Assembly: GCF_001687625.2 (NCBI RefSeq)
Contig: NZ_CP016538.2
Coordinates: 1,022,501 to 1,086,500 of the forward strand
Source: Planococcus maritimus
Lineage (GTDB): Bacteria; Bacillota; Bacilli; Bacillales_A; Planococcaceae
Length of the DNA stretch: 64,000 bases
Direction: 5' to 3'
Positions 30,329-34,334 of the stretch are shown one piece after another. The notes beneath the pieces were generated by a model, which saw only the letters and a list, made by a program, of their open reading frames with translations, searched no databases and was not told the DNA's origin. Both the position numbers and the translations under genes were made by a program. Every line of letters begins with the position of its first letter. Position 1 is the stretch's first letter.

Positions 30329-30449
30329 TTCTTTCACCGCCTCAATTTGCTGTTATTCTCTTGTTCCCCCAAATATGAACATTGCAAACCTTTCAGTCAC
30401 AGGTGCGAACGCCAGTCAAGAGGTACGACTTTTGACTGAATTGGCCTTT

Positions 30450-30500
30450 TAGTTCAAAATAGCTTGACAATTCAAAAAAACGAGTGGTACTCTTGAACTA
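30450..30500 (+). promoter_or_regulatory. bmr promoter flanked by an inverted-repeat operator
   Basis: TTGACA (30464-30469) with a weak TACTCT (30488-30493) 18 bp downstream. The promoter is enclosed by TAGTTCAA (30450-30457) and its exact inverse TTGAACTA (30493-30500). This suggests a dimeric repressor or activator site of MarR/TetR style; the regulator is not in the window. Seen in sequence, role inferred. Confidence 0.5.
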
Positions 30501-30529
30501 ACAAATATATGGAAAAGGAGGTTTGGACA

Positions 30530-30601
30530 ATGAAAAAAATTCAAAAGGCGTTAAACACCAATTGCATAGCATTGCCAGGCTCTCCAACTATTTTTCATTG
30601 A
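30530..30601 (+). CDS. Leader peptide ORF 1 (23 aa) of the bmrCD operon (BmrB-like)
   Basis: ATG behind AAGGAGG, 23 codons, peptide beginning MKKIQKALNTN and ending SPTIFH. A terminator follows 60 nt later and bmrC lies 240 nt downstream. In B. subtilis the equivalent leader peptide BmrB couples bmrCD expression to ribosome stalling by translation-inhibiting antibiotics. The peptide itself is not recognisably related to BmrB; the analogy is positional. CAGGC in codons 20-21 can pair with GCCTG in the terminator 5' arm. Confidence 0.6.
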   Translation: MKKIQKALNTNCIALPGSPTIFH

Positions 30602-30660
30602 TATTTACTTCGTGACTAGAAATATTCGGGTTGGGTCTGTGCACCCAGTCCTATTTTCAA

Positions 30661-30696
30661 GAGCGCATGCCTGAAAACGGGTATGCGCTCTTTTTG
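30661..30696 (+). terminator. Leader terminator (attenuator) upstream of bmrCD
   Basis: Stem GAGCGCATGCCTG / CGGGTATGCGCTC, loop AAAA, then TTTTTGTGT. Must be bypassed to express the exporter. Confidence 0.85.
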
Positions 30697-30755
30697 TGTG
30701 GTTTAACCAGCTAGGCTGCTTAAATAAATAAGTAAAATCGAGGGAGAGAAGCATT

Positions 30756-30812
30756 ATGGGAAATTCTCATGTAAAAAAAGCACTAATCAAGGAATCGCTT
30801 GAAGGCGATTAG
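30756..30812 (+). CDS. Leader ORF 2 (18 aa) between terminator and bmrC
   Basis: ATG behind GAGGGAGAG, peptide MGNSHVKKALIKESLEGD, stop TAG 31 nt before bmrC. Its second half lies in a potential hairpin ACTAATC / GATTAGT. Could be a second regulatory peptide or allow translational coupling; no relative recognised. Confidence 0.4.
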   Translation: MGNSHVKKALIKESLEGD

Positions 30813-30843
30813 TCAAATTGAAAATGGAAAGAAGGCGTAACGA

Positions 30844-32583
30844 ATGTTTGATGTTTTATGGAAATTAAAATGGTTTTTTAAAGAAAATTGGCTGCGCTAC
30901 ACACTGGCAGTCGTGCTATTATTCGTAGCAAATATTCTCGAAATTGTGCCGCCGTGGCTCATCGGTGTGGCTATTGATGCCATCGCCCAGCAGGAACTGA
31001 CCGGTGAATTGCTGTGGCAGTATGTCATTGTGTTACTTGTCGCGATGGTGCTGGCGTATGTCATCAATTTCGTCTGGCAATATCAATTATTCGGAGGAGC
31101 TTATGTCATTGAGCGGCAATTGCGATCGAGCTTGATGGGACAATTTCTCAAGATGACTCCGACATTTTATGAAAAAAACCGGACGGGGGATTTGATGGCC
31201 CGTTCGACCAATGATTTAAAGGCGATTTCCGAGACGGCAGGATTCGGCATTTTAACGCTTGTCGATTCGACTTTATACATGGCAACGATCATCGTGGCAA
31301 TGGGTGTGCTGGTTTCTTGGGAGCTGACTTTCCTGGCAATCTTGCCACTGCCGGTGCTTGCGATTGTCGTTCAATTGCTCGGCAAAAAAATTCACGAGCG
31401 CTATACGTTAGCACAAGACGCGTTCGGTGATATGAACGATAGTGTCCTGGAATCGGTCGGAGGTGTCCGTGTCGTCAGAGCGTATGTACAGGAACGTTCG
31501 TCTGAAAAGGAATTTCAGGACATGACGCAAGATGTCTACGACAAAAACATGGCAGTCGAGCGCATCGATGCCTTGTTCGCGCCGGTTACGAAAGTGCTGA
31601 CAGGCATCAGTTATGTCATTGGCCTCGGCTATGGTGCATTTCTGGTTTCTGAAGGAACGATGACTTTGGGCGATTTGGTCGCCTTCAATGTTTATCTCGG
31701 CATGATCGTCTGGCCGATGTTTGCCATCGGGGAATTGATCAACATTCTGCAGCGCGGCAATGCATCAATTGACCGAGTCAATGAAACCTTGGAGTACGAG
31801 GAAGATGTCGTCGACCCGAAAACGACAAGAAACATGGGGCAACCGGAACGCATTGGATTCCGCGACTTCGGCTTTACGTATCCGCAATCGACAGCGATTA
31901 ATTTGCAAGGCATCAACTTGTCGATGAACAGCGGACAGACGCTCGGCATCGTCGGCAAGACCGGAAGCGGCAAGACGACTTTTGTTAAGCAACTGCTGAA
32001 GGAATACCCGACAGGAGAAGGCTCTTTGACGATGAACGGCATCGAAATCAATGAGTTGAGCAAAGCGCAACTTCGCGATTGGGTCGGCTATGTGCCTCAA
32101 GACCATGTGTTGTTTTCACGAACCATCTTAGAGAACATCTTGTTTGGCAAAGCAGATGCGACACAAGAGGAAGTTGCCGAAGCCATTAAGCTGTCTTATT
32201 TTGAAAAAGATTTGGCGATGCTGCCGAATGGCTTAGAAACGCTAGTCGGTGAAAAAGGTGTCGCATTATCAGGCGGCCAAAAGCAGCGCATTTCAATCGC
32301 GCGGGCAATCATCAAGAATCCGGAAATTCTTATTTTGGACGATTCCTTATCGGCAGTCGATGCCAAAACGGAAGCAAAAATTATCGAGAATATCCAACGC
32401 GAGCGTTCAGGCAAGACGACGATTATTACCACACACCGCTTGTCTGCTGTTAAACACGCTGATTGGATCGTTGTGCTCGATGATGGCCGCATTATCGAAG
32501 AAGGCACACATGAGAAGTTAATCGCAAAACAAGGCTGGTATCACGAGCAATTCCTCCGCCAGCAAATCGGGGAGGTGCAATAA
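30844..32583 (+). CDS. bmrC: Multidrug ABC exporter half-transporter BmrC
   Basis: A 579-residue ABC exporter subunit: six membrane helices (to about residue 320) and one nucleotide-binding domain. Walker A is GKTGSGKTT (about 370), signature LSGGQKQRIS, Walker B ILILDD. The catalytic Glu position after Walker B is Asp500 (DDSLSAVDAK), so its site is degenerate, as in BmrC of the heterodimeric B. subtilis BmrCD. It pairs with BmrD, whose ATG overlaps its stop (TAATG). Exports drugs across the membrane; expression probably depends on the upstream attenuator. The start follows AGAAGGCG. Confidence 0.93.
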   Translation: MFDVLWKLKWFFKENWLRYTLAVVLLFVANILEIVPPWLIGVAIDAIAQQELTGELLWQYVIVLLVAMVLAYVINFVWQYQLFGGAYVIERQLRSSLMGQFLKMTPTFYEKNRTGDLMARSTNDLKAISETAGFGILTLVDSTLYMATIIVAMGVLVSWELTFLAILPLPVLAIVVQLLGKKIHERYTLAQDAFGDMNDSVLESVGGVRVVRAYVQERSSEKEFQDMTQDVYDKNMAVERIDALFAPVTKVLTGISYVIGLGYGAFLVSEGTMTLGDLVAFNVYLGMIVWPMFAIGELINILQRGNASIDRVNETLEYEEDVVDPKTTRNMGQPERIGFRDFGFTYPQSTAINLQGINLSMNSGQTLGIVGKTGSGKTTFVKQLLKEYPTGEGSLTMNGIEINELSKAQLRDWVGYVPQDHVLFSRTILENILFGKADATQEEVAEAIKLSYFEKDLAMLPNGLETLVGEKGVALSGGQKQRISIARAIIKNPEILILDDSLSAVDAKTEAKIIENIQRERSGKTTIITTHRLSAVKHADWIVVLDDGRIIEEGTHEKLIAKQGWYHEQFLRQQIGEVQ

Positions 32584-34334
32584 TGGGAACAGGAAAACGA
32601 TTAACGAACTATGCATTGCAATTTAAGAGCGTTATCATCTGGGGCTTGGTGTTTCTGGCGATTGCGGTAGCCGCCGATCTAGCAGCGCCTTTGATCGCTA
32701 TGGAAATTATCGATGAACACATCTCAGGTGCTGGAGCCATTGAATTTGGCCCGATTGCACAGCTATTGGCCTTGTTCTTCGGCTTATCGATCGTTACGGC
32801 CGTGTTTCGCTACCTGCAGTATATTTTGCTGCAAAAAGGTGCGAACCGCGTCATCCGTAAAATGAGAACCGATGTTTTCGAACACGTCCAACGCTTGCCA
32901 ATCAGCTATTTCGATAATTTGCCGGCAGGAAAAGTGGTCGCGCGCATCACCAATGACACCGAAGCGATCCGCGAGTTGTTCGTCACGGTGCTTGCGCAAT
33001 TTGCGACGAGCTTCATGTATATGGCCGGTATCTATGCTGCTCTTTTCTATCTGGACTGGCGCATGGCGGCGATTGCCTTTGTCCTTGTGCCGCTATTGTA
33101 CGGCTGGATGCTCATTTACCGGAAATACGCATCGAACTTTAACCACATCGTCCGTGAAAAGGTCAGCGAGATGAATGCCATGATCAACGAATCGATTCAA
33201 GGCATGAGCATCATCCAGGCGTTTCGCCGCGAGAAACAGATGAAAGGCGAATTTGAGGAGCTGAACCAAAAGCATTTTAAGTTCCAGCAGAAATTATTGG
33301 TACTAGAAGCAGCCGCATCACATAATATGGTCGGCGTCTTGCGCTCGATAATCTTTGTCTTGTTCATCTGGTACTTCGGCGGGGCATCAATGACTGGCAA
33401 TACAGTGGTTACAGTCGGGGTGCTGTACGCATTTGTGGATTACATTATCCGTCTATTTAATCCGATCAGCGGCATCGTCAATCAATTCAGCCGTCTAGAA
33501 CAATCACTCGTGGCAGCGGAGCGCGTCTTTCGCTTGCTCGATCGTCCGGGTGAAGCGGTCAGCGACGAGCGGGTGGAACGCTACCAAGGCAATGTCCGTT
33601 TTGAACACGTCTGGTTTGCTTATAAAGATGATGAGTATGTGTTGAAGGATTTGTCTTTCGAAGCGAAACAAGGGGAGACGGTTGCGCTTGTCGGCCATAC
33701 GGGATCTGGGAAAAGTTCGATCATGAACTTGCTATTCCGTTTTTACGACGCAACGAAAGGGCAAATTTTAATCGACGGCGTCAACGTCAACGATCTGCCA
33801 AGGCAGGCAGTTCGTGAACATATGGGGATCGTGCTTCAAGATCCGTATTTGTTTACGGGAACAATCGAATCCAATATTACGCTTGGAGACGAACGTGTCA
33901 GCCGCGAAAAAGCAGAAGCGGCACTTGCAGCAGTCGGCGGGGAACGGGTCACGAAACATTTGCCAGCTGGCATCGATGAACCGGTCGTGGAAAAAGGCAG
34001 CACACTTTCTTCTGGCCAGCGCCAGCTTGTGTCCTTTGCCCGCGCCTTGGCATTCGATCCGGCGATTCTGATCCTGGACGAAGCGACATCGAACATCGAC
34101 ACTGAAACAGAAGAGATCATTCAGCATGCGATGGATGTCTTGAAAAAAGGGCGGACGACTTTCATCATCGCCCACCGCTTGTCGACCATTAAGAATGCGG
34201 ACCGCATCTTGGTGCTCGACCACGGAGAAATCGCGGAATCCGGCACGCATGATGAATTGATGGAACACGGCGGCATTTACCGCCAAATGTATCGCATCCA
34301 ATCAGGGATGGCCACTACCCAGAACATCGGGTAA
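32583..34334 (+). CDS. bmrD: Multidrug ABC exporter half-transporter BmrD
   Basis: A 583-residue partner of BmrC with six membrane helices and an ATPase domain. Walker A GHTGSGKSS, the signature diverges to LSSGQRQL, and Walker B ILILDEATSNID has the catalytic Glu500. Combining this Glu with the canonical LSGGQ of BmrC gives one active and one degenerate composite site, the known asymmetry of heterodimeric exporters. One-base overlap with bmrC ensures coupled translation. A short GC terminator follows; yheE lies beyond on the opposite strand as in B. subtilis. Confidence 0.93.
   Translation: MGTGKRLTNYALQFKSVIIWGLVFLAIAVAADLAAPLIAMEIIDEHISGAGAIEFGPIAQLLALFFGLSIVTAVFRYLQYILLQKGANRVIRKMRTDVFEHVQRLPISYFDNLPAGKVVARITNDTEAIRELFVTVLAQFATSFMYMAGIYAALFYLDWRMAAIAFVLVPLLYGWMLIYRKYASNFNHIVREKVSEMNAMINESIQGMSIIQAFRREKQMKGEFEELNQKHFKFQQKLLVLEAAASHNMVGVLRSIIFVLFIWYFGGASMTGNTVVTVGVLYAFVDYIIRLFNPISGIVNQFSRLEQSLVAAERVFRLLDRPGEAVSDERVERYQGNVRFEHVWFAYKDDEYVLKDLSFEAKQGETVALVGHTGSGKSSIMNLLFRFYDATKGQILIDGVNVNDLPRQAVREHMGIVLQDPYLFTGTIESNITLGDERVSREKAEAALAAVGGERVTKHLPAGIDEPVVEKGSTLSSGQRQLVSFARALAFDPAILILDEATSNIDTETEEIIQHAMDVLKKGRTTFIIAHRLSTIKNADRILVLDHGEIAESGTHDELMEHGGIYRQMYRIQSGMATTQNIG

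Follow-up and report, generated by a model that had tools for sequence, protein, structure and literature searches.

BmrCD serves as a model among multidrug exporters, and attenuation by a leader peptide was reportedly described for such a pump first in its leader. The bmrCD locus of Planococcus maritimus, which lies in the 64,000-nucleotide stretch of DNA analysed here (the window), raises the question of what two small ORFs, ORF1 ahead of the terminators and ORF2 behind them, might contribute to control of the pump genes. The reading favoured here, with a probability of about 0.48, is that the leader may exert a two-step, ribosome-sensing control over bmrCD, in which ORF1 would govern transcription and ORF2 a later step. 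The features of the locus are listed in Table 1; an earlier sequence-only reading had reported two very short ORFs, a terminator and an inverted repeat, and all of them are in place.

Table 1. Features of the bmrCD leader and pump genes in the window (positions count from the first nucleotide of the window).
Feature	Position	Strand	Basis
Inverted repeat around promoter, 9-bp perfect arms TTAGTTCAA (30449-30457) and TTGAACTAA (30493-30501)	30449..30501	.	perfect arms; judged incidental
Promoter TTGACA-18-TACTCT with extended TG (-35, 30464-30469; 18-nt spacer; -10, 30488-30493)	30464..30493	+	sequence
ORF1 MKKIQKALNTNCIALPGSPTIFH, 23 codons, ATG at 30530, SD AAGGAGG, stop TGA ending at 30601	30530..30601	+	sequence; place, length and SD conserved, peptide not
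Putative antiterminator, 30576-30585 (ORF1 codons 16-19) with 30629-30639	30576..30639	+	MFE fold, 27 leaders
T1, hairpin with short U-tract	30628..30651	+	fold, 27-leader covariation; weak here but strong in several relatives
T2, intrinsic terminator (hairpin 30659-30692) with U-tract	30659..30697	+	sequence, fold, 27-leader covariation
ORF2 MGNSHVKKALIKESLEGD, 18 codons, stop TAG	30756..30812	+	sequence, cross-genome comparison
SD-like AAGGAA within ORF2, ahead of the stop	30789..30794	+	motif count against synonymous resampling
bmrC (yheI homologue), ABC exporter half, ATG at 30844	30844..32583	+	ORF list, protein comparison
bmrD, ABC exporter half	32583..34334	+	ORF list, protein comparison

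The identity of the pump genes, given as bmrCD by the sequence-only reading, is supported: residues 2-575 of the window's BmrC (574 aligned) match the B. subtilis YheI/BmrC of solved structures with an E value of 4e-245, a second ABC half gene adjoins, and both genes of the BmrC-BmrD heterodimer are thus present in the operon. The leader had no match in Rfam at the gathering level (the best sub-threshold hit, E 0.024, was unrelated), and the small ORFs had none above cut-off in Pfam and NCBIfam, where one weak Rrf2-like match fell far below it. Another ABC exporter match, the second, lies beyond the window (G000:C1:1005570-1007225); it contains one internal TAA, and the corresponding matches of close relatives likewise carry a TAA inside.

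The leader was compared across 254 regions upstream of bmrC. The window's own family contributes 133 (39 from its genus), other Bacilli 41, and named genomes retrieved with the BmrC of B. subtilis as the query 80; the family set beyond the genus draws on 94 of 114 rows, and the class set on 38 of 103 rows together with three weaker class matches. These regions are not independent, and at least five class-level regions duplicate genomes of the named set (the pairs L164/L234, L165/L232, L184/L241, L187/L243 and L191/L211 have identical small-ORF translations). An alignment (A2) of 27 leaders of the genus was used for the pairing tests of T1, T2 and the antiterminator.

This comparison supports an attenuator reading of the leader, in which an SD-bearing small ORF stands between the promoter and an intrinsic terminator. 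The 13-nt arms of T2 form 15 pairs counting G-U, followed by T5 (-25.2 kcal/mol), and 98.1% of its pair cells are kept in the 27 leaders with 24 two-sided changes, a result reached by 0 of 500 shuffles, which supports the terminated leader proposed earlier. T1 (-10.9 kcal/mol), which had been missed together with its alternative pairing to ORF1, shows pairing in 88% of its cells and 15 two-sided changes in the same leaders, again reached by 0 of 500 shuffles. At least one terminator lies upstream of ORF2 in 150 of the 157 leaders that have ORF2, and at least two in 85.

A putative antiterminator pairing between ORF1 and T1 has support from folding and from the retention of its pairs. It is the predicted MFE fold of the window leader when free of ribosomes, and 86.9% of its cells pair in the 27 genus leaders, against at most 53.6% in slid controls; its covariation in these leaders is not above that of shuffles, and it opposes T1 only, not T2. 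By eye, no structure that would open T2 was seen in the alignment, and T2 was present in every whole-leader fold made. T2 is strong and no structure preventing it was found, so relief of T1 alone would leave read-through unexplained. The ORF1 peptide is unconstrained, with a pN/pS of 0.98 in frame and 0.81 and 0.71 in the other frames, which fits a sensor of the position at which ribosomes slow and not a sequence-specific stalling peptide.

By analogy, ORF1 with T1 and T2 would work like the known bmrB attenuator of B. subtilis (Reilman 2014, PMC4191407), which has the same pump genes and the same succession of promoter, translated small ORF, terminator and bmrC. According to the portions of that paper available, 50S drugs induce B. 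subtilis bmrCD via the translated leader and the terminator, and blocking leader translation lowered expression. The same portions describe a single 53-codon GTG ORF enclosing the terminator, but the window has two ORFs outside the terminators, and ORF1 ends before T1. The sequence-only reading had set BmrB apart as a different and longer peptide, a distinction that the seven genomes compared from the B. subtilis group do not support (L208-L214, with B. inaquosorum, B. tequilensis and B. spizizenii among them; B. subtilis 168 is outside this set). An ATG ORF of 23-26 codons, similar to ORF1 and preceded at a favourable distance by GGAGG, is intact in all seven (for example, MPRNLRVYQTVSYWRGKPYVLFN in L208), whereas the 53-codon GTG frame, which agrees in length and start with bmrB as given in the available text of PMC4191407, is intact in two of the seven and has a poorer SD. 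The B. subtilis group itself shows the two-ORF layout, and the annotated 53-codon bmrB looks, from this comparison, like a misassigned reading frame. The start-site mutant described in the available text of PMC4191407 altered several starts and SDs simultaneously, so that in our reading it does not tell the ATG and GTG frames apart.

ORF2 distinguishes this leader further. A small ORF ending in [E/D]-[S/G/D]-[G/D], 15-44 nt upstream of bmrC, was found in 157 of the 254 regions (110 of 133 in the family, 14 of 41 in other Bacilli and 33 of 80 in named genomes) by a rule that is blind to the stop codon and asks for an SD-like motif, an end matching [ED][SGDTNPA][GDS] and a position of that end 8-62 nt before bmrC. 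Fourteen regions that the rule missed were found by eye, eight of the B. subtilis group with TGA and six with TAG, and were added by hand for the tree and the later bmrC SD test only. ORF2 is spread over the family codes f1, f14, f33, f37, f38, f41, f44, f51 and f57, but was absent from one subclade of the window's genus and from most Paenibacillus-type leaders examined. When 20 genomes of the genus were scanned for an ORF2-like pattern, 15 of 17 matches lay upstream of bmrC, and the other two represent a single out-of-frame site present in two genomes.

Within the genus, one group (L023, L024, L025, L029 and L032) has kept ORF1, T1 and T2 and lost ORF2, which makes it a natural contrast for the role of ORF2. 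In another genome (L018, G005), ORF1 and the terminators have seemingly been lost to repetitive sequence, and an ORF2 with UAG is kept. L112 and L113 have about 165 nt extra between ORF2 and bmrC.

The stop codon of ORF2 is strongly biased: TAG ends 148 of the 157, TAA five and TGA four, and all 110 in the family end in TAG. As controls, ORF1 of the same leaders (141 found of 157) ends in TGA 60 times, TAA 52 and TAG 29; the long ORFs of the window end in TAA 27 times, TGA 17 and TAG 6; and bmrC at the 80 named loci ends in TGA 45 times, TAA 20 and TAG 15. A Fisher p of 1e-42 for this bias ignores kinship, for which reason the count on a tree of BmrC is the fairer figure: the ORF2 stop changes three times over 92 rows and the ORF1 stop 18 times over 82 rows. 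ORF2 ends with UAG in species as varied as Peribacillus frigoritolerans (...GDPDSG*), Geobacillus icigianus (...AGEMESG*), Bacillus pumilus (...ENVESG*) and Neobacillus rhizophilus (...GDLESG*). The exceptions are the B. subtilis group, with UGA or UAA, and L185 and L235, with UAA; UAG is not essential, since the B. subtilis group ends ORF2 without it.

Comparison among genomes also indicates that ORF2 is under constraint as a peptide in this frame. Its last nine codons have a pN/pS of 0.285 in frame, and 1.44 and 1.18 when shifted, over 86 distinct sequences. In the family, codon -3 is GAN and codon -1 GRN without exception, and codon -2 is mostly RRY; the first and second positions of codon -3 and the first of codon -1 are fixed, whereas third positions are near random (1.97 bits of entropy at codon -1), as are most of the bases that follow the stop. 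The earlier expectation that both small ORFs would be conserved was thus realised in different ways, by the place, length and SD of ORF1 and by the peptide of ORF2. An SD-like motif lies at codons -8 to -4 in 92 of 109 family ORF2s, where synonymous resampling gives a mean of 24.9 and a maximum of 35, and in 36 of 47 non-family ones (mean 13.6, maximum 23). Both ORFs, the two terminators, the constraint on the ORF2 peptide, the UAG bias and the SD-like element all emerge from the comparison of genomes. A full-text literature search, whose coverage left out most subscription papers, turned up no account of a second ORF upstream of bmrC, and ORF2 has apparently been overlooked.

Where ORF2 is present, the SD of bmrC is weaker (family medians -5.55 kcal/mol, n=112, and -7.7 kcal/mol, n=21; p 9e-5), a difference that kinship could explain, as the tree offers only four to five independent pairs, too few to reach significance. 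Programmed frameshifting at the ORF2 stop was considered and rejected: the distances from stop to bmrC fall in all three frames and the bases after the stop are mostly near random, so that no fusion of ORF2 with bmrC is conserved.

The sequence-only reading had proposed a second layer of control by a DNA-binding protein at the inverted repeat around the promoter, of the MarR or TetR repressor type. The perfect 9-bp arms on both sides of the promoter invite this reading, but perfect copies of the TAGTTCAA/TTGAACTA pair occur in just 6 of 34 genus promoters, close to chance and in near relatives only (L002, L003, L006, L007, L010 and L046), and shuffling the 150-nt promoter region yields a comparable 9-bp pair in 39 of 1000 cases. 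The right arm lies within the conserved -10/start region and the left arm drifts among the 34 promoters. Genome-wide, no second TTAGTTCAA/TTGAACTAA site was found, and its neighbours are a UspA-like gene and bmrC, not a regulator; neither a conserved palindrome nor a nearby regulator or regulon was found for this promoter. A repressor is therefore highly improbable, the repeat is treated as incidental, and the second layer, if there is any, is more likely to be ORF2 than a DNA-binding protein.

The promoter of the window is absent from the output of a consensus promoter scan, in which its score is too weak; the presence of TTGACA in 34 of 34 aligned genus promoters is built into the way they were extracted. 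TTGACAATTCAAAA, at 30464-30477 from the -35 element into the spacer, is common to nearly all 34, and this conservation of the spacer hints at a factor or a special promoter feature.

In the favoured two-step reading, a ribosome in drug-free cells would traverse ORF1 and cover codons 16-19, T1 (and T2) would fold and transcription would end. With a 50S drug, ribosomes slowed early in ORF1 would leave codons 16-19 free to pair with the 5′ arm of T1, and T1 would not form; ORF1 would act as a position-dependent sensor without a specific peptide. RNA made by read-through would then expose ORF2 to translation, and its ribosomes would come upon a pause element resembling an SD, then a C-terminus of the acidic-small-Gly/Asp kind and UAG, the stop codon read by RF1 alone. 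Being transcribed only after read-through, ORF2 could act only on translation of the pump or on the fate of the RNA. Taken together, the fixed C-terminus, the RF1 stop, the SD-like element and the closeness of a weak start suggest that slow, peptide-dependent termination at ORF2 may set initiation at the weak bmrC site 15-44 nt on, by coupling or re-initiation. Drug sensing, slow termination at ORF2 and the coupling of ORF2 to bmrC are inferred. Against the two-step reading, the ribosome-free fold of the window leader is the antiterminator, yet blocking leader translation lowered expression in B. subtilis, as reported in the available part of PMC4191407. A bolder version, doubtful though plausible, is that ORF2 represents a new class of RF1-specific termination-control peptide, in which [E/D]-[S/G/D]-[G/D]-UAG and the SD-like pause element hold the ribosome at UAG and set translation of a multidrug pump, perhaps drug-dependently. 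ORF2 is shared by no fewer than nine families of Bacilli, and two genera of the window's family also have it ahead of another small gene set.

Other explanations must be weighed for the same observations. Only ORF1 and the terminators might regulate, with ORF2 a constitutive coupling uORF that supplies the weak bmrC start and senses nothing; the weaker bmrC SD in its presence, the lack of sequestration of that SD and the short gap between stop and start would all be expected, but plain coupling requires neither a fixed C-terminus nor UAG, and both are constrained, which makes this explanation rather unlikely. That the end of ORF2 is an RNA or DNA signal, such as a standby or pause site made of the SD-like motif and UAG, and not a peptide, is improbable: although the SD-like element exceeds synonymous expectation and UAG is invariant in the family, conservation tracks codon positions while third bases vary, and pN/pS rises above 1 in the other frames. 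Translational attenuation of the ermC type, in which a stalled ORF2 would release a bmrC SD held in a hairpin, accords with the location of ORF2 directly upstream of bmrC, but in 37 of the 110 family ORF2 leaders no hairpin sequestering the SD was found (unpaired probability 0.62, against 0.54 in shuffles) and the MFE equals that of shuffles (-16.3 in both), and it is very improbable.

The two-ORF leader can stand apart from bmrC, as nine of the genomes have a site of this kind. The pattern KESLxxx-UAG has matches in 58 of 200 family genomes, and in nine it accompanies ORF1 and terminators at a site with no bmrC behind it; a protein search gave 9 of 151, and the copies are found in two genera. 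This complete second leader (L168-L176, e.g. L169:163-936) precedes two uncharacterised small ORFs, one of 40 aa (...MVLATP) and one of about 54-64 aa (MFTINDIEYAKQRMADLEKEA...), the latter with its SD inside a TTCTCCTTAAGGAGAA palindrome. A small ORF behind the second leader is possibly a drug-inducible small protein.

For the published B. subtilis system, the comparison suggests that the leader ORF was placed in the wrong frame and that the reporters described did not include a second, peptide-constrained and mostly UAG-ending ORF beside bmrC; according to the available part of PMC4191407, the bmrB162-gfp fusion extends no further than bmrB. Among other leaders, that of vmlR in B. subtilis resembles the window in combining a uORF with transcription attenuation by a drug-stalled ribosome, but in the available text of PMC9226507 it has one regulatory uORF and none after the terminator, where the window has ORF2. 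Salmonella mgtQ (PMC8092293) is also a small ORF with a strong SD just before a transporter gene, and its acidic residues tune downstream translation; it works via alternative stem-loops, whereas none was seen at ORF2, and the accessible portion of that paper gives no link between the acidic residues and the stop codon.

If the proposal for ORF2 is true, it would be a rare case of evolution fixing the stop codon of a leader peptide. SpeFL is a leader peptide that blocks release at its own stop. MsrDL (UAA) and TnaC (RF2) likewise prevent their own release, each with a preference at the stop codon, according to the available part of PMC10314930. ORF2, which on sequence comparison combines the constrained C-terminal peptide and stop codon of termination-arrest leaders, shares these two traits with MsrDL, TnaC and, as generally described, SpeFL. 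All three, however, act on a terminator downstream of them, whereas ORF2 follows its terminators and prefers UAG.
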